From: Deltaproteobacteria bacterium
GTDB lineage: Bacteria > Desulfobacterota > DSM-4660 > Desulfatiglandales > Desulfatiglandaceae
Direction: 5' to 3'
Length of the DNA stretch: 32,748 nt
Assembly: GCA_019308785.1 (NCBI GenBank)
Contig: JAFDHL010000003.1
Location: 1 to 32,748 of the forward strand
Position 1 is the first letter of the stretch. Every line of letters starts with the position of its first letter. The notes under the pieces are model-generated. The model saw only the letters and a list, made by a program, of their open reading frames with translations. It searched no databases and had not been told where the DNA came from. Shown here in pieces: positions 13,719 through 30,314 of the stretch. The translations under genes and the position numbers were made by a program.

Positions 13719-13872
13719 CTCGTAAAAAGTCGGTTTGCGCCTTTTTACTCGGCGGGGAAGGGCTTCCCCTCCCCCGCCATTTGAAGTAAATTCAATCCCG
13801 CGTACCGCGGGACCACCCTCGCCCCAGGCCGGGGCTTACTCGCCCTCGGCCTGTTGACGGACTTTTTACGAG
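13719..13872. repeat. 154-bp inverted-repeat element (13-bp perfect arms)
   Basis: Arms CTCGTAAAAAGTC (13719-13731) and GACTTTTTACGAG (13860-13872) are perfect reverse complements. Between them are nested GC-rich palindromes, including CCCGCG-TA-CCGCGGG near 13797-13811 and a GGCGGGG/CCCCCGCC pair at 13751-13779. The right arm also forms its own 10-bp hairpin (13854-13880). The ACTTTTTACGAGG core recurs at 16260-16272. This looks like a small palindromic intergenic element (REP or MITE-like), with no coding capacity. Confidence 0.6.
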
Positions 13873-13880: not shown

Positions 13881-13961
13881 AGTTATACCCAGTTAAAATA
13901 AGATTGAAGGCCAAGGGCAGATCAATGCCTAATGAAGGGCCATCACTTTTTAGGAGATATC

Positions 13962-14951
13962 ATGTCCATTCAAGAAAACATAATGATTCCTACTCAGTTA
14001 GTAGATGTCAAGAACATCGACGATTCTTCAGGTCCGTATTGCATGAGTTTTGGATTTGATCTTAGACCATTAATCCGGTCCATTGATAGTATCGGCCTGC
14101 TTAATAGTCCTTTGTTGATGAAAACGGTACAGGAGAGATTAAACATCATTACCGGATACCGGAGGATTAAGGCTATCAAGACATTGAAATGGGATAAGAT
14201 ACCCTGCAGGATTCTATCTGAATCCAAACTGCCCCCCCTGGAATGTCTTTTGTTAAATTTCCATGACAATCTTTCTACAAGGGAACTTAATTGTGTGGAA
14301 AAGGGTATGGCCTTAAGCCGTTTAACCGCGTATCTTCCCGATTCTGAAATCATCGAACATTACATGCCGTTGTTGGATCTTCCCTCACATGAAGATACCC
14401 TTCACCTTTATATTAAGATTGAAAAAGAACTGGAAATAGAGATCAAAAAAAACCTGGCGCAGGGCCGGCTATCGCTGCACGCTGCTAAAATGCTTTTGGA
14501 GGTCGATCCTGATTCCAGGTCCTCCATTTGCCGACTCATATCATATTTAAAGTTTAATATTAACCAACAGAAACAATTTATTGATTATATTGTTGATATT
14601 TCACATATATCTGGCAAACCAGTTTCTGATCTCTTAGGGGAGGAGCCCGTTAAGGGGGTTTGCTCAGATGAACACCTGAATATCCCTCAAAAGGGCAGGG
14701 CAGTGCTGCGGTTTTTTAGAGGCAGGCGTTTTCCGTCTTTGACAATTGCTGAATCGACCTTCAAAAAGATGGTCGCTAAATTAGATCTTCCTGATGGTGT
14801 GAAAATTGAATTCCCGCGGTTCTTTGAAGCACAACATTTTCGCCTTGAAGTATGTTTTAAAGAGGGAAGGGAGTTGAAAGAGAAGATAGAGAGTCTGACC
14901 CGGAAAGAAGGGTTGGGGAACTTAGGCAATCCCTGGGGAGAGGGTGTCTAA
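13962..14951 (+). CDS. ParB-N-like domain protein coupled to an SPL-like radical SAM gene
   Basis: 329 residues from the ATG at 13962, chosen over 13932 because TAGGAG sits 7 bases upstream. The N-terminal ~90 residues follow the ParB/sulfiredoxin fold: IPTQLVDVKNID, then LIRSIDSIGLLNSPLLMKT, the GYRRIKAIKTLKW box (65-77) and IPCRIL. The middle (about 90-220) is helical, with LSTRELNCVEKGMALSRL and LAQGRLSLHAAKMLLEVDP, which resembles the KorB/ParB helix-turn-helix region. The C-terminal ~100 residues (RFFRGRRFPSLTIAESTFKKM onward) are not recognised. The stop overlaps the next ATG (TAATG), so the two proteins are translationally coupled and probably act together. It is far from any parA, so a chromosome-segregation role is unlikely; a DNA- or nucleotide-binding role is inference. 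Confidence 0.72.
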   Translation: MSIQENIMIPTQLVDVKNIDDSSGPYCMSFGFDLRPLIRSIDSIGLLNSPLLMKTVQERLNIITGYRRIKAIKTLKWDKIPCRILSESKLPPLECLLLNFHDNLSTRELNCVEKGMALSRLTAYLPDSEIIEHYMPLLDLPSHEDTLHLYIKIEKELEIEIKKNLAQGRLSLHAAKMLLEVDPDSRSSICRLISYLKFNINQQKQFIDYIVDISHISGKPVSDLLGEEPVKGVCSDEHLNIPQKGRAVLRFFRGRRFPSLTIAESTFKKMVAKLDLPDGVKIEFPRFFEAQHFRLEVCFKEGRELKEKIESLTRKEGLGNLGNPWGEGV

Positions 14952-16042
14952 TGTCGAATTTCACCATCAAAGAAGTGTTAGTGGAAGATGGGGCTTTAAG
15001 GCATTCGCTCACCAATCAAATATTGCAAAGATTACCCGGTATTCCTGTTCAAGCGACAAAAGGCGTCCGATCAAAGGCGAGCAGCAATGAAATGGATATG
15101 GGGAAGGATACGCTTCATCTGGTTTTTTATAAAGGTGAATTTTTTAAGCCGTGCCCAGGAACCAGGGAATATATGTGCTGCGGATATCAGATCCTCAATG
15201 TGGCAACAAATTGTCCCCTCAACTGCAGCTACTGCATCTTGCAGTCCTATTTCAATCAGCCCAATTTGAGAGTTTTTGTCAATCTGGAAGAGGAACTTAA
15301 GCGGGTTTTGCATGTCATTGATTCTGAACCTGACCGGATCTTCCGTGTGGGAACAGGGGAGTTCACTGACAGTCTTGCTGTTGATCCTATTACCTGCTGG
15401 AGTGATCTCCTTCTTCCCGCGTTCTCAAAAAGAAAAAATGTGGTTCTGGAACTTAAGACTAAAACAACAAATATCGAGAGGGTTCTCGATTCCAAATACA
15501 GGGATCGAATCATCGTCTCCTGGTCCTTGAATAGCCCCTACATTGCTGCACGGGAGGAACACGGGGCAGCGAGCTTGAAAAACAGGCTTAAGGCGGCCAG
15601 ACAGTGTCAATCCGAGGGATTTGTTTTAGGTTTTCACTTTGATCCGCTTATCCCGCATCCCCAATGGAAACAGGAATATCTGAAGAGCCTTGAACTGATG
15701 GACAAATATATTGATCCCAAGAGAATTATTTGGATAAGCATGGGTTCTTTCAGGTATATGCCTGGACTTAAACAGATCATTAGGAGACGGCACCCAAAAA
15801 CATGTGTGCTTGATGGGGAATTTATCACTGGATTAGATGGAAAAATGCGTTATTTCAAACCGATACGTACGGATCTATACGGGTTTATGCGTGAAAATAT
15901 GGAGAAGTGGCACCGCGATTTGGGCCTTTACCTTTGTATGGAATCGGATGATGTCTGGCAGATGAGTATGGGGTGGTCTCCTGGGAGCTCTGCAGGGCTC
16001 CGTGGTTACTTAGACAGACGCGTTGTTGAATTTTTTGGGTAG
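14951..16042 (+). CDS. Spore photoproduct lyase-like radical SAM protein
   Basis: 363 residues. The radical SAM cluster motif CxxxCxxC is C88, C92, C95 in NCPLNCSYCILQSYF, followed by LRVFVNLEEELKRVL, as in spore photoproduct lyase (SplB), which repairs the thymine dimer of spores. The SAM-binding GTGEFTD block is at 134-140 and FHFDPLIPH is a further family motif. In Bacillus SplB the H-donor Cys141 lies in the segment that here reads GTGEFTD without a Cys, so the chemistry may differ. Nothing in the window suggests sporulation. Coupling with the ParB-like gene (one-base overlap) suggests a joint task on nucleic acid. Substrate unknown. Confidence 0.8.
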   Translation: MSNFTIKEVLVEDGALRHSLTNQILQRLPGIPVQATKGVRSKASSNEMDMGKDTLHLVFYKGEFFKPCPGTREYMCCGYQILNVATNCPLNCSYCILQSYFNQPNLRVFVNLEEELKRVLHVIDSEPDRIFRVGTGEFTDSLAVDPITCWSDLLLPAFSKRKNVVLELKTKTTNIERVLDSKYRDRIIVSWSLNSPYIAAREEHGAASLKNRLKAARQCQSEGFVLGFHFDPLIPHPQWKQEYLKSLELMDKYIDPKRIIWISMGSFRYMPGLKQIIRRRHPKTCVLDGEFITGLDGKMRYFKPIRTDLYGFMRENMEKWHRDLGLYLCMESDDVWQMSMGWSPGSSAGLRGYLDRRVVEFFG

Positions 16043-16252: not shown

Positions 16253-16274
16253 AACCTCGACTTTTTACGAGGTT
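16253..16274. repeat. 7-bp hairpin sharing the ACTTTTTACGAGG core
   Basis: AACCTCG (16253-16259), loop ACTTTTTA, CGAGGTT (16268-16274). The 13-base core ACTTTTTACGAGG is close to the right arm at 13861-13872, linking the two noncoding regions that flank the ParB-SPL pair. Confidence 0.55.
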
Positions 16275-16337: not shown

Positions 16338-16565
16338 ATGACATTAAGAGAAGAGGTTGAGAGTGCCCTGGAAAAAGTAAGACCCTCACTCCAGGCAGAC
16401 GGAGGGGATGTCAAGTTAGTGGATGTGGATGACAATGGAGTGGTTAAGGTGATGCTACAGGGAGCTTGCGCAGGATGTCCCATGTCCCAGATGACCCTTA
16501 AAATGGGAATTGAAAAGATCTTGAAGCAGAATATTCCTGAAGTAACAAGTGTGGAATCGGTATAG
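16338..16565 (+). CDS. Nfu-type Fe-S cluster scaffold/carrier (NifU C-terminal domain)
   Basis: 75 residues, a standalone NifU C-terminal domain. Signature residues are [19 protein letters not shown] (7-25) and the cluster-binding CxxC at C44 and C47 in GACAGCPMS. Two such subunits hold a bridging 4Fe-4S cluster that is handed to apo-proteins in the cytoplasm. GGAGG lies 5 bases before the ATG. The hbd gene starts 73 bases later on the same strand, so both may share a transcript. Many Fe-S enzymes in the window (MiaB, SPL-like, flavin oxidoreductase) are possible clients, but that is only inference. Confidence 0.9.
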
Positions 16566-16638
16566 TGCGAATAAATATCCCAAATTAACTCTGGAGGGTT
16601 TTGGCTGAAGGCCAAGAACAGGATAAAGGAGACGTATT

Positions 16639-17499
16639 ATGGAGATAAAAAAAATAGGCGTTGTAGGTGCAGGGGCAATGGGAAATGGCATTGCTCAAGT
16701 TGCAGCACAGATAGGCTGTGAGGTCGTTATGAGAGATATTAAGGACGAATTTGTTGAGCACGGCATGAATAATATTGACAGATTCCTGTCCAAGAGCGTG
16801 GAAAAAGGGAAGCTCGATGCCAAGGAAAAGGATACCATACTTGGAAGGATCAAGGGCACAACCGATATGTCTCAAATCAAAGACATGGATTTTGTGATTG
16901 AAGTTGTTATCGAGGATCTGGAGCTGAAAAAAAGTGTTTTCAAAGAACTTGATGACTTGTGCCGCCCTGAAGTTATTCTTGCGTCCAACACATCCTCCAT
17001 GTCAATAACTGAAATAGCCGCGGCAACAAAACGGCCTGACAGGGTATGTGGAATGCATTTTTTCAATCCGGTGCCACTCATGAGATTAGTGGAAGTCATC
17101 CGCGGGTATTCTACCAGCGATGAGACGATTAAAATTACCACCGATCTTGCAAAGAAAATGGGTAAGACGACCGTTGAGATCAAAAAAGATTCTCCGGGCT
17201 TTATTGTTAATAGAATTATGATTCCCCATATATTAGAAGCAATAAAAATTGTGGAAGAGGGCATTGCCAGTATAGAAGATGTTGATATTGCCGTTAAAAA
17301 CGGTCTCAATTATCCAATGGGGCCATTTGAGCTAATGGACCTTACCGGAATTGATATTGCATATTTCGTGGCGGAGTATTTTTACGAGGAATTAAACAAG
17401 GAGTCCAAGTGGGTTTCCCCGAATCTGCTTAAGACAATGATCCGCGCGGGTAAATTTGGAAGAAAGACCGGTGCCGGATGGTATGATTACAGCAAATAA
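16639..17499 (+). CDS. hbd: 3-hydroxybutyryl-CoA dehydrogenase
   Basis: 286 residues, the usual length of the short monofunctional enzyme. NAD-binding GAGAMGNG is at 10-17, the catalytic-loop ASNTSSMSITEIA at 115-127 and the catalytic His140 in CGMHFFNPVPLMRLVE, paired with Glu152; the C-terminal dimerisation half contains DSPGFIVNRIM and NGLNYPMGPFELMDLTG. It interconverts (S)-3-hydroxybutyryl-CoA and acetoacetyl-CoA with NAD(P)+ in the cytoplasm, in beta-oxidation of short acyl-CoAs or in the lower part of anaerobic aromatic degradation. AAAGGAG precedes the ATG. The transcript probably ends at the strong terminator at 17713-17745. Confidence 0.92.
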   Translation: MEIKKIGVVGAGAMGNGIAQVAAQIGCEVVMRDIKDEFVEHGMNNIDRFLSKSVEKGKLDAKEKDTILGRIKGTTDMSQIKDMDFVIEVVIEDLELKKSVFKELDDLCRPEVILASNTSSMSITEIAAATKRPDRVCGMHFFNPVPLMRLVEVIRGYSTSDETIKITTDLAKKMGKTTVEIKKDSPGFIVNRIMIPHILEAIKIVEEGIASIEDVDIAVKNGLNYPMGPFELMDLTGIDIAYFVAEYFYEELNKESKWVSPNLLKTMIRAGKFGRKTGAGWYDYSK

Positions 17500-18003: not shown

Positions 18004-18888
18004 TTATAAGGAATTTTCTATCTGGTTCTTTCTCTTTCCTTTGAACTTATAAAGGTGTTGGTCTGCCTTTGTAACAAATTCCTCGGGCGTCATTCCCTCT
18101 GAAAAGTCTGCATGGCCTGTACTTGCTGTTAATTTGCATTCTTTTTGAATGCCCTCTTCAATACGTTTTGCTATACTCTGGGCAATGTCCACACTCGCAT
18201 CAATTAAGATGGCTGCAAATTCATCCCCACCATACCTATAGCCGGAATCAACGCCTTGCCTGATATTATCACTGATGATGGCTCCTACCTTTTTGAGAAC
18301 CCCATCACCTGCCACATGCCCGTTTTTGTCATTATACTCCTTGAAATCGTCTAAATCGAGCAGGATCATTGAAAGCTGATTCTTTTGTCTCCGGGCCCTC
18401 ACGATCTCTTCTTTCAACCTGGCATAAAATTGCCTCTGGTTGTAGAGGCCTGTTAAAGAATCGGTAATGGACAATCTGTTGAGTTCTTGTTTTATGTTGC
18501 GCTCAACTATGGCCCTTTTGATCTTGGCCTCAAGCTCTTCAATGACAAAAGGTTTGTTGATAAAATCCGAGGCCCCTGCATTTACCACATCCATATATTG
18601 GTAGTCCTTGGAATACCCTGTCATGGCGATGACGCAAACATTGGGGTGATCATTTTTTACACGGCCGATCAATTCCAAACCATCCATTTTAGGCATCTTG
18701 ATGTCTGTCACCAAAAAGGCATAGGATTTCTTTTTCAGTTTTCGGAGGGCTTCCTCTCCGCTATCCGAAGAATCAGCCGGAAACCCAAGATACATTAGCA
18801 TTTCCACAACAGGCCCTCTGATAGACTCTTCGTCATCAACGACAAGTATCAATTCATCGCTGTATTTAATATGTTCTATATCCACCAA
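18004..18888 (-). CDS. Response regulator with GGDEF (diguanylate cyclase) output
   Basis: 294 residues. Receiver domain (about 11-125): acidic pair D18/D19, phospho-acceptor D62 in VTDIKMPKMDG, T90 and K112. A short helix leads to a GGDEF domain (about 140-290) with LTDSLTGLYNQRQF-like entry (ITDSLTGLYN, 141-150), DLDDFKEYND and an intact GGDEF at 220-224, so it should make c-di-GMP when phosphorylated. The inhibitory RxxD site before GGDEF is not intact (QGVD), so product inhibition may be weak. The start is a TTG (18886-18888) or the adjacent GTG. It follows miaB after 15 bases, so it belongs to the nadK-miaB transcript. No histidine kinase is nearby. Confidence 0.9.
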   Translation of the reverse strand: MVDIEHIKYSDELILVVDDEESIRGPVVEMLMYLGFPADSSDSGEEALRKLKKKSYAFLVTDIKMPKMDGLELIGRVKNDHPNVCVIAMTGYSKDYQYMDVVNAGASDFINKPFVIEELEAKIKRAIVERNIKQELNRLSITDSLTGLYNQRQFYARLKEEIVRARRQKNQLSMILLDLDDFKEYNDKNGHVAGDGVLKKVGAIISDNIRQGVDSGYRYGGDEFAAILIDASVDIAQSIAKRIEEGIQKECKLTASTGHADFSEGMTPEEFVTKADQHLYKFKGKRKNQIENSL

Positions 18889-18903
18889 AAAAATCCGTAA
18901 GCC

Positions 18904-20442
18904 TTATATTGTTTTCTCTATCTCGCCCTGGAGGGAATTCTGCAACCCATGTTTAATCGATAATTTAACTAAACAGCCTATATATCTGCTATCACAGTCA
19001 AAATTCACAACCTTATTTGTTCCCGTACGGCCCGTTAACTGCCTTCCTTTTTTGCTTTGGCCTTCAACCAGCACTTCCATCTGCTTGCCCTCAAGAGCCC
19101 TGTTCTTTTCCAAGGTGATTTGTCTTTGAAGGTTTTGAAGGACACTTAAACGTGATGCTTTTTCAGTTTCATCGACCTTTTCATTCAATTTGTATGCAAA
19201 TGTACCTTTTCTGTCGGAATATTTAAAGGAAAAAATTGCATCAAATCGGACCTGCCCAATAAGATCGAGGGTCTCCGAAAATTCATTCTCTGATTCTCCG
19301 GGAAAACCTACCATGATATCACTTGTTATGGCAATATCAGGGTTTGTGGATCTCAGTTTCGCTATGAGGTCTATATAGTGCTCCCGCGTATATCCCCTTT
19401 TCATCCGCTTGAGAACTGAATTTGAGCCCGCCTGTAAAGGCAGGTGCAGGTGGGGACAAAGGTTATTGAGATATACAAAGCATTGAATCAGCTCATCAGA
19501 GAGATCCTTTGGATGTGATGTTGTAAAACGCAGTCTCAGCAAACCATTAAGCCCACTAACTTCCCTGAGCAGGGAAACGAAGTCCCACCGCTTCTCCCCT
19601 TCCCATCTGTATGAATTCACATTCTGTCCAAGTAGGGTAATCTCTTTAACCCCCTCTGTGATCAGATTCCTTGCCTCAGCGATTATGTCGTCAGGGGAAC
19701 GGGAAATTTCTCTACCCCTGACGTAAGGAACAATACAGTAAGTGCAGAAATTATTACACCCTTGCATGATGGATATATAACCGGTGACTCTTCCCTCGAA
19801 GTAGCCCCGGAACGGAATCTGCGAAGGCGGAGCAGGATTCAGATCTGTTGCCACGACTCTTTGTCGATCCGAACCAATACGATTCAAGACTTCCTGTATT
19901 CTGCCCAGCTCCCTGGGTCCCATTACGAAATCAATCTGTGGAAACCTTTTTATCAACTCGGTGCCTTGCTGTTGGGCCATGCATCCCACAACACCAAGAA
20001 TTATTTCCGGTTTCCTGCGCTTAATGACGGACATGCGGCCAAGATGGCTGAATGCCTTTTGTTCTGCTTTTGCCCTGACAGTGCAGGTATTTATCAGTAT
20101 AAGATAAGCATCGTTCGGATCGTCTACAGGAGATAAGCCTAAATGTCCGAGGGATTGAGCCAGATAGTCCGAATCGCAATCATTCATCTGGCAACCCATG
20201 GTTGTAATAAAGAACGTACGTGACGCATCTTTTTCCACAAGGTCAATCCCTTCTCCTTTTTTTAAATAATCCAGCAACTCAGAAACCAGCTCCTCACACC
20301 CAGGGGAAATCTGGATTTCAATAAATGCAACAAGGGGATCGAGTGTCCTGACCACAGCCGTCCCATCGTAAGATTCAATGGTTGATCTTAGGTAGTTGAT
20401 ATCCTTCCGATCCACACGGAAGATACGTTTAATGGTCTGCAT
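18904..20442 (-). CDS. miaB: tRNA methylthiotransferase MiaB with N-terminal DUF4911 extension
   Basis: 512 residues, about 70 longer than normal MiaB. Residues 1-~72 (FRVDRKDINYLRSTIESYDG, AVVRTLDP, SPGCEELVSELL) match my memory of DUF4911, usually a separate small protein. MiaB proper starts near 75: cluster Cys C84, C120 and C154, radical SAM C229, C233, C236 in GCNNFCTYCIVPYVRGR, LHLPLQAGSN and a C-terminal TRAM-like domain. There is no internal start between the two parts, so this is a true fusion. MiaB adds the 2-methylthio group to i6A37 of tRNA using SAM and Fe-S clusters. The ATG overlaps the end of nadK by 14 bases. Confidence 0.92.
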   Translation of the reverse strand: MQTIKRIFRVDRKDINYLRSTIESYDGTAVVRTLDPLVAFIEIQISPGCEELVSELLDYLKKGEGIDLVEKDASRTFFITTMGCQMNDCDSDYLAQSLGHLGLSPVDDPNDAYLILINTCTVRAKAEQKAFSHLGRMSVIKRRKPEIILGVVGCMAQQQGTELIKRFPQIDFVMGPRELGRIQEVLNRIGSDRQRVVATDLNPAPPSQIPFRGYFEGRVTGYISIMQGCNNFCTYCIVPYVRGREISRSPDDIIAEARNLITEGVKEITLLGQNVNSYRWEGEKRWDFVSLLREVSGLNGLLRLRFTTSHPKDLSDELIQCFVYLNNLCPHLHLPLQAGSNSVLKRMKRGYTREHYIDLIAKLRSTNPDIAITSDIMVGFPGESENEFSETLDLIGQVRFDAIFSFKYSDRKGTFAYKLNEKVDETEKASRLSVLQNLQRQITLEKNRALEGKQMEVLVEGQSKKGRQLTGRTGTNKVVNFDCDSRYIGCLVKLSIKHGLQNSLQGEIEKTI

Positions 20443-25730: not shown

Positions 25731-25922
25731 ATGAGAACAAATATTATTATTGATGATTTCCTGATGGCCGAAGCAATGCGACTCAGCCAATTGAAGACAA
25801 AAAAAGCAACGGTTGAGAAAGGACTGCATTTATTAATTCAAATCAAAAAACAGGAACAAATCCGCAATTTATGTGGTAAACTGAAGTGGGATGCAAATCT
25901 GGAACAGATGAGGCTTGACTAA
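25731..25922 (+). CDS. vapB: VapB-type antitoxin
   Basis: 63 residues. The N-terminal MRTNIIIDDFLMAEAMRLSQLKTKKATVEKGLHLLI is the ribbon-helix-helix DNA-binding fold of VapB (DUF2191-type) antitoxins, and the C-terminal ~20 residues (CGKLKWDANLEQMRLD) are the toxin-binding tail. It should bind VapC to neutralise it and bind its own promoter. AAAGGAGG lies 5 to 6 bases before the ATG. Its stop and the vapC ATG overlap by one base (TAATG). Confidence 0.87.
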   Translation: MRTNIIIDDFLMAEAMRLSQLKTKKATVEKGLHLLIQIKKQEQIRNLCGKLKWDANLEQMRLD

Positions 25923-26347
25923 TGATTTTGGTCGACTCATCGGTTTGGATTAACTATTTTAGCGGGATAGAGACCTGGCAAACAAAATTGCTTGATGGGC
26001 TGCTCTCTAACGTACCCATTCTCATGGGTGATTTGATTTTGGCTGAGGTGTTACAGGGCTTCCGTTCCGATAAAGATTTTGAAGAAGCCAGAGCCAACCT
26101 GAGCACCCTTCCATTTCAGACAATAGGTGGTTATAAAGTCGCTTTAAAAAGCGCATTGAACTATCGACTGTTGCGAAAAAAAGGAGTAACAGTCAGAAAG
26201 ACAATTGACATTATTATTGGTACATTTTGTATTGTTAAAAACATCCCTCTGCTACACGATGACCGGGACTTTGAACCAATGGTAACCCACCTCTCCCTTA
26301 AAGCGTTATCTCAGGACTATATATTCAATTTGAGTAATCCTTTCTGA
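25922..26347 (+). CDS. vapC: VapC-type PIN-domain ribonuclease toxin
   Basis: 141 residues, full-length PIN domain. Acidic metal-binding residues are D5 (MILVDSSVWI), E42 (LILAEVLQGF), D96 (KTIDIIIG) and D114/D116 (LLHDDRDF). VapC toxins cleave tRNA or rRNA and are inhibited by VapB. All expected acids are present, so the toxin appears intact. The gene ends convergently with the dehydratase-family gene 50 bases away. Confidence 0.9.
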   Translation: MILVDSSVWINYFSGIETWQTKLLDGLLSNVPILMGDLILAEVLQGFRSDKDFEEARANLSTLPFQTIGGYKVALKSALNYRLLRKKGVTVRKTIDIIIGTFCIVKNIPLLHDDRDFEPMVTHLSLKALSQDYIFNLSNPF

Positions 26348-29745: not shown

Positions 29746-29997
29746 TCATGTATAAGTCTCCAAAGGAAATGTTTCTATCCGTTCATGACCGACCATTCTT
29801 CGCGCATAGATCAGGCATGCTTGGATATCTTCCTGTTCTAACCAGGGATAACCCTCAAGAATGGTTTCAACCGTATCTCCAGCAGCAAGCATTCCGAGGA
29901 TATGTTCAACCGCAACACGCCGCCCCCTGATGATCGGCTTCCCGCCGAAGATTTTAGGGTTTACAGTGATCCTCTCCAAAATTTTTTTCTCATCCAT
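29746..29997 (-). CDS. DUF433 domain protein (antitoxin-like), without its usual partner
   Basis: 83 residues from an ATG at 29995-29997 with AGAGG upstream; the 45 codons before it in frame are rejected. The start MDEKKILERITVNPKIFGGKPIIRGRRVAVEHILGMLAAG is the DUF433 helical DNA-binding domain. Such proteins normally precede a DUF5615 PIN-like toxin gene in an antitoxin-toxin pair; here hicBA follows directly and no DUF5615 gene is present. It may therefore be an orphan antitoxin, a regulator of hicBA, or a remnant of a replaced module. Confidence 0.82.
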   Translation of the reverse strand: MDEKKILERITVNPKIFGGKPIIRGRRVAVEHILGMLAAGDTVETILEGYPWLEQEDIQACLIYARRMVGHERIETFPLETYT

Positions 29998-30076
29998 AAC
30001 TATTACCTCTCGTTTCTCGCTATTACTTTTTGTTTTTGATTTTAGCCTGGAAGGATACAATATTTCAATCGCAAAT

Positions 30077-30314
30077 CTAAAATCCCAACCCTTTTTTCCT
30101 TGCCAGAACTCCGTCCACCCATCGTTTTTCATCAGTTCCCGAGGGATAGAGAGCGGAAAGGGCTTGAGCTAATCGCCAGTAAAGTGGGTTCATACCGATA
30201 CCGTCATCAACAAGGAATCTTTTCAATGCCTCTCCGCGACCTGCTCCGAAAAGTATCATGCTCTGGTGAAGCTGATCAAGAACGGTTGAACCGGCCCTTC
30301 CTGATAAATCGCCA
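30077..30314 (-). pseudogene. 3' remnant of a DUF1156 (COG1743-type) DNA methylase gene
   Basis: The frame ending in TAG (30077-30079) reads GRAGSTVLDQLHQSMILF, AQALSALYPSGTDEKRWVDG and VLARKKGLGF, the very characteristic C-terminus of DUF1156 adenine-specific DNA methylases. Only about 75 codons remain, and the 5' limit of recognisable sequence falls at 30314, exactly where the 47-bp repeat begins. The catalytic part is missing, so it is a dead fragment. DUF1156 methylases occur with DUF499 proteins in defence islands. Confidence 0.75.

Follow-up and report, generated by a model that had tools for sequence, protein, structure and literature searches.

The window, by which we mean the whole 32,748-nucleotide stretch analysed here, comes from a bacterium of sulfate-reducer type and carries on its forward strand two adjacent genes that almost certainly encode an obligate functional pair. 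The upstream gene (13962–14951) encodes a ParB-like partner protein of 329 amino acids, recognised from its open reading frame, its AF2 model and its co-occurrence with the neighbouring gene across genomes, and the downstream gene (14951–16042) encodes an SPL-like radical SAM protein of 363 amino acids, recognised from its match to the Pfam SPL profile and from an AF2 model matching an SPL structure. The parts can be assigned to known superfamilies, whereas neither the partner domain nor the system as a whole can. The original prediction of an undescribed coupled pair is strongly supported by the co-occurrence of the two genes, although the conserved element of the partner has proved to be a new C-terminal domain and not the ParB/HTH part.

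To our knowledge, all characterised SPLs, which repair UV damage, are tied to spores. The clade described here is found in hundreds of genomes outside any spore context, together with an obligate domain that is new to Pfam and the PDB. Its existence implies that there is a radical reaction not yet described and that the ParB fold has been put to a new use. The pair spans at least two bacterial phyla, the partner domain is usually attached to a ParB-like protein, and nature offers standalone and perhaps fused variants through which the role of the partner can be tested directly. Our search, which covered 5.4 million open papers, found nothing linking a ParB-like protein to an SPL-like or other radical SAM protein.

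Organization and co-occurrence of the two genes

The ParB-like gene starts with an ATG at 13962, preceded by AGGAG at 13952–13956, and ends with a TAA stop codon at 14949–14951; the ATG of the SPL-like gene is at 14951 and shares one base with that stop, giving the sequence TAATG (14949–14953, forward strand). The one-base overlap proposed earlier thus holds, with both reading frames confirmed at their places.

Using the C-terminal domain of the partner as a probe and taking strong SPL-like matches, we found both in 163 of 297 genomes of the window's phylum, the SPL-like gene only in six, the domain only in six and neither in 122 (Fisher p = 2e-67, in a set of phylogenetically non-independent genomes, many of them MAGs). 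Finding the SPL-like gene mostly without the ParB-like gene would have refuted the pairing, and these counts show the opposite. SPL-like relatives are present in 181 of the 297 genomes, and record titles name many further hosts among the Desulfobacterota, KSB1, Caldithrix, Zixibacteria and Omnitrophota. In a second phylum, represented by 82 genomes, all 50 of those with a clear SPL-like gene also have the partner domain.

Both genes could be mapped in 132 genomes: in 89 they are adjacent on the same strand, with the partner directly upstream of the SPL-like gene, in two they lie within 20 kb of each other, and in 41 they are unlinked, so that the co-occurrence reflects more than linkage. The same arrangement, partner directly upstream and on the same strand, is seen at 56 of 80 named loci, and 14 of the 17 named genomes lacking adjacency carry the partner domain elsewhere.

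The SPL-like radical SAM protein

The SPL-like protein matches the Pfam SPL profile PF20903 with 102 bits (E = 4e-29, cut-off 27), and its AF2 model (pLDDT 91.5) matches Gt SPL (4fhc) over the whole length, with TM scores of 0.79/0.84. In these respects it resembles the SplB proteins (PF20903, TIGR04070; Gt SPL 4fhc/4rh0 and Ca SPL), with which it also shares a CX3CX2C radical SAM cluster motif (C88-C92-C95, 15212–15235, forward strand, invariant in 54 relatives), a tyrosine at the position of Gt Y96 (Y94) and a lysine at that of Gt K174 (K171). It differs from them in having only 23–25% identity, a glutamate for Cys140, an isoleucine for Tyr98, additional invariant or near-invariant cysteines (C76, C77 and C329), an obligate partner protein and no sporulation context, and in scoring far under the cut-off of the NCBIfam equivalog TIGR04070 (112.5 bits against 400). 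In a phylogenetic tree the family is separated from SPL-family proteins of Bacillus, cyanobacteria and Deinococcus with support of 98/99, albeit with long-branch warnings. The protein is built on an SPL chassis, but we do not class it as an SPL.

Comparison of 54 diverse members shows that the invariant residues in the first half of the protein are C88, C92, C95, C68, C77, Y94, E137, D140, K169 and K171, and in the second half H229, D231, R268, D296, K298, R300, Y301, C329 and E331. Four of the latter, D296, K298, R300 and Y301, belong to a β-hairpin (15818–15859, forward strand; AF2 strands 291–293 and 299–301) that occupies the site of the lesion-recognition hairpin in SPL, to which it is probably equivalent. 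The position of Tyr98/99, a residue of the radical relay in SPL, is residue 96 in this family and is occupied by isoleucine, valine or phenylalanine. The hydrogen donor of the Bacillus enzymes, Cys140 (Gt) or Cys141 (Bs), is replaced by the invariant E137, the last residue of a GTGE motif at residues 134–137 (15350–15361, forward strand). We considered this loss as proof against SPL-type chemistry and have withdrawn that argument, because the SPL of C. acetobutylicum takes as its hydrogen donor a different cysteine, C74, which lies across the pocket (PMC5368176), and C68 of the SPL-like protein (codon 15152–15154, forward strand) probably falls at that position. Specifically, HMMER and MAFFT both align the invariant C68 with Gt S76, which probably corresponds to Ca C74, a correspondence drawn from the Gt SPL C140A/S76C mutant (PDB 4rh0) and PMC5368176. 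On these alignments a donor cysteine of the clostridial type is plausible.

We also note that Fusobacterium vincentii encodes an SPL-like protein of 623 amino acids (L167:3098-4969), whose N-terminal half has no identified family; a fused nucleosidase domain suspected by eye in this protein was dropped for want of a significant match. The record is labelled a plasmid, yet it is 2.1 Mb long and so is probably a chromosome.

The ParB-like protein and its C-terminal domain

The ParB-like protein (AF2 model, pLDDT 94.6) consists of three parts on the forward strand: a ParB_N core of the Noc/ParB CTP-binding type (residues 34–84, 14061–14213), assigned from profiles, fold match and invariant residues; a helical HTH_ParB-like region (residues ~88–177, 14223–14492), assigned from a weak HTH_ParB match, a Noc/ParB profile alignment that spans it and the AF2 helices; and the new C-terminal domain (residues 178–318, 14493–14915), marked out by its co-occurrence with the SPL-like protein and its occurrence alone in some lineages. 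That the N-terminus would match ParB by profile had been a point to check, and it does: the single sequence falls slightly under the Pfam ParB_N cut-off (22.9 bits against 26.3, E = 9e-5), while a profile of 56 family members matches Noc structures at 4e-23, and also ParB and Spo0J, over residues ~20–233, in agreement with Foldseek. Distant profile matches to the ParB-fold enzymes SbnI/SerK and sulfiredoxin (~3e-4 to 2e-3) are far weaker than the ParB/Noc match, and indicate that a ParB fold can act as a nucleotide-using enzyme.

With the ParB/Noc CTPase clamps (7bnr, 7ng0, 6sdk) the protein shares the N-terminal ParB fold, the G-x-R-R patch and the helical HTH-like region. It departs from them in that the patch reads G-[Y/F]-[R/K]-R, with tyrosine or phenylalanine in place of the usual glutamate of the GERRxRA motif (G65 and R68 are invariant in 56 relatives), and in that the third motif, ENxQRE, is kept only partly (D/E102 in 46 of the 56, N103 in 45, R107 in 47, N110 in 54 and E113 in 55), being eroded in some Syntrophobacterales-type loci. 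Further departures are the replacement of the usual ParB C-terminus by the new domain and the absence of a parA gene beside it at this locus; the same genome encodes canonical ParBs separately, with a canonical parA-parB on contig C102. Matches to phage families are mainly to the ParB_N part.

Residues 178–318 have no relatives in Pfam or the PDB; within the family E289, P258, F299 and R256 are invariant or nearly so. Eight genomes from four families (G038, G136 and G074; G163; G198; G149, G221 and G284) have, directly upstream of the SPL-like gene, a protein of 168–199 amino acids that matches the family profile at positions ~146–321 only, with no ParB_N. Some lineages lack the ParB/HTH part, and it is the C-terminal domain that is the conserved element of the partner. 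Cases in which the ParB halves look split (G103 and G142) were discarded, as they appear to be contig-end effects.

A divergent SPL-like clade in the second phylum has a conserved N-terminal extension of 120 amino acids (FTFQEFRQVVEASRDLxMWGEG), and 11 of the 16 genomes with such a protein have no separate partner. When the extension was first compared with the partner domain by profile, the match fell short of significance; with enriched profiles hhalign gave a score of 25.6 (P = 6e-4), against no more than 18 in 60 column shuffles and no more than 13 for reversed and other control profiles. These profile comparisons are suggestive of a natural fusion of the partner domain to the SPL-like protein. 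The N-extended variants are those of loci L215–L222 and L224–L231, from a KSB1-type phylum.

Recurrent neighbours

In 26 loci the gene immediately preceding the partner or the SPL-like gene, often with an overlap, encodes a specific GT2 glycosyltransferase, ~40–60% identical across phyla and recognisable by the signatures CEDYDxWLR and GGHxDQLS, which is often a member of the operon. In 28 loci from many families, 15 of them with no adjoining SPL-like gene, the partner is immediately preceded by purC (SAICAR synthetase), a second recurrent operon neighbour (near-duplicates included in both counts). The loci with purC upstream include L112–L118, L125, L126, L128, L130, L196 and L198. In the window's own genome the GT2 ortholog (L245) is at G000:C102:4066-4881 on the reverse strand, near the canonical parA-parB, and lies downstream of genes that by eye are ispH/S1-like and tRNA-dihydrouridine-synthase-like; RlmH-like neighbours, also named by eye, occur in another family.

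Within the window's phylum GT2, partner and SPL-like genes are all present in 156 genomes and all absent from 117, and GT2 might appear to be an obligate third component. This fails in the second phylum, where GT2 is unassociated, being found in 40 of 68 SPL-positive and 8 of 14 SPL-negative genomes, and where a block of genomes, G324–G333 and G335–G338, encodes the SPL-like protein and its partner but yields no GT2 ortholog at threshold. GT2 is therefore a frequent associate and not an obligate part.

Proposed mechanism and alternatives

We consider that the SPL-like protein quite probably forms a direct complex with its partner, and the balance tips slightly towards a nucleic acid as the substrate. 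The overall reading that we prefer, to which the sequences lead us to give about an even chance, is of an obligate two-subunit radical SAM enzyme that in most lineages is brought to nucleic acid by a ParB front end. The SPL-like subunit would carry a [4Fe-4S] cluster on C88, C92 and C95 and cleave SAM, and the resulting 5′-deoxyadenosyl radical would abstract a hydrogen from the substrate; the invariant C68 would probably return the hydrogen, in the manner put forward for the clostridial SPL. The partner would dock on the SPL-like subunit through its C-terminal domain, which would be required for function, and in most lineages the ParB/Noc-type front end, binding nucleotide and DNA, would deliver the enzyme to DNA or RNA. 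Because the ParB/HTH part is missing in some lineages and its third motif eroded in others, the core role must be something other than DNA loading. The fold and conserved residues make action on a nucleic-acid lesion or modification plausible, and the substrate would most likely be a damaged or modified pyrimidine in DNA or RNA. More tentatively, and with rather less than an even chance of being right, the pair may represent a widespread but so far unrecognised machinery by which anaerobes repair or modify nucleic acid, in which an SPL-type subunit, obligately bound to a new domain, is directed to DNA or RNA by a repurposed ParB CTP clamp, often with a dedicated GT2 alongside.

The recurrent GT2 and purC neighbours have no obvious fit with DNA repair, and the strongest alternative is a pathway of biosynthesis or RNA modification in which the SPL-like protein, the partner and GT2 make a glycosylated nucleoside, a tRNA or rRNA modification or a cofactor, the ParB fold then being a nucleotide-binding subunit and no DNA clamp. 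The upstream positions of GT2 and purC, the joint presence and absence of the three genes in the window's phylum, and the company of dihydrouridine-synthase-like, ispH and RlmH-like genes all speak for it; against it stand the lack of GT2 association in the second phylum and the fact that GT2 relatives with solved structures mostly have glycans or proteins as substrates, and we regard it as possible but doubtful. True repair of dithymine lesions of the spore-photoproduct type in non-sporulating anaerobes, with the ParB-like protein as a lesion or DNA loader, is less probable still: the SPL fold, the clostridial-type C68, K171, the hairpin residues R300-Y301 and the ParB/HTH front end would suit it, but the equivalog score, the separate clade and the missing Tyr98 do not, and many hosts come, to judge from record titles, from sediment or groundwater, where UV is no obvious pressure.

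It is very improbable that the ParB-like protein is merely a DNA-binding regulator of the SPL-like gene, as its upstream, overlapping gene and its HTH similarity might suggest, since unlinked copies co-occur too, the conserved element is a domain found alone with no HTH, and that domain may be fused to the SPL-like protein. Least credible of all is an association owed only to shared ancestry or chance neighbourhood. The genomes are indeed non-independent, and each gene appears to be inherited vertically and present as a single copy, but both genes are absent together from single genomes of otherwise positive families (G231 in f1, G112 in f11, G047 in f12, G014 in f17 and G040 in f42), and in several single-gene genomes the match lies near a contig end. 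Moreover, the 14 SPL-negative genomes of the second phylum include eight with GT2 and only one with the partner, so incompleteness alone does not explain the joint absence.

Other features of the window

The palindromes that were thought to bound the pair are real, with 16-nt arms at 13719–13734 and 13857–13872 and a third copy at 16259–16271, but they belong to a dispersed genome repeat unrelated to it. The end motif CTCGTAAAAAGTC is present in 70 exact copies in the draft genome of 4 Mb, which often form inverted pairs with starts ~116–146 nt apart; the palindromes are thus uninformative about the two genes, and we reject them as part of the system. The repeat with CTCGTAAAAAGTC ends (13719–13872 and 16259–16271) is MITE-like.

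A role of the pair as a defence system was likewise rejected, as no PADLOC model family for known anti-phage defence was matched. Behind the pair, 16338–17499 and 18004–20442 contain genes named by eye as NfuA-like, 3-hydroxyacyl-CoA dehydrogenase, response-regulator/GGDEF and MiaB-like; the order from the NfuA-like to the MiaB-like gene is kept in ~20 related genomes, as close-lineage synteny. Further downstream, the reading frames at 25922–26347 and 29746–30132 are, by eye, PIN-toxin-like and DUF433-antitoxin-like.
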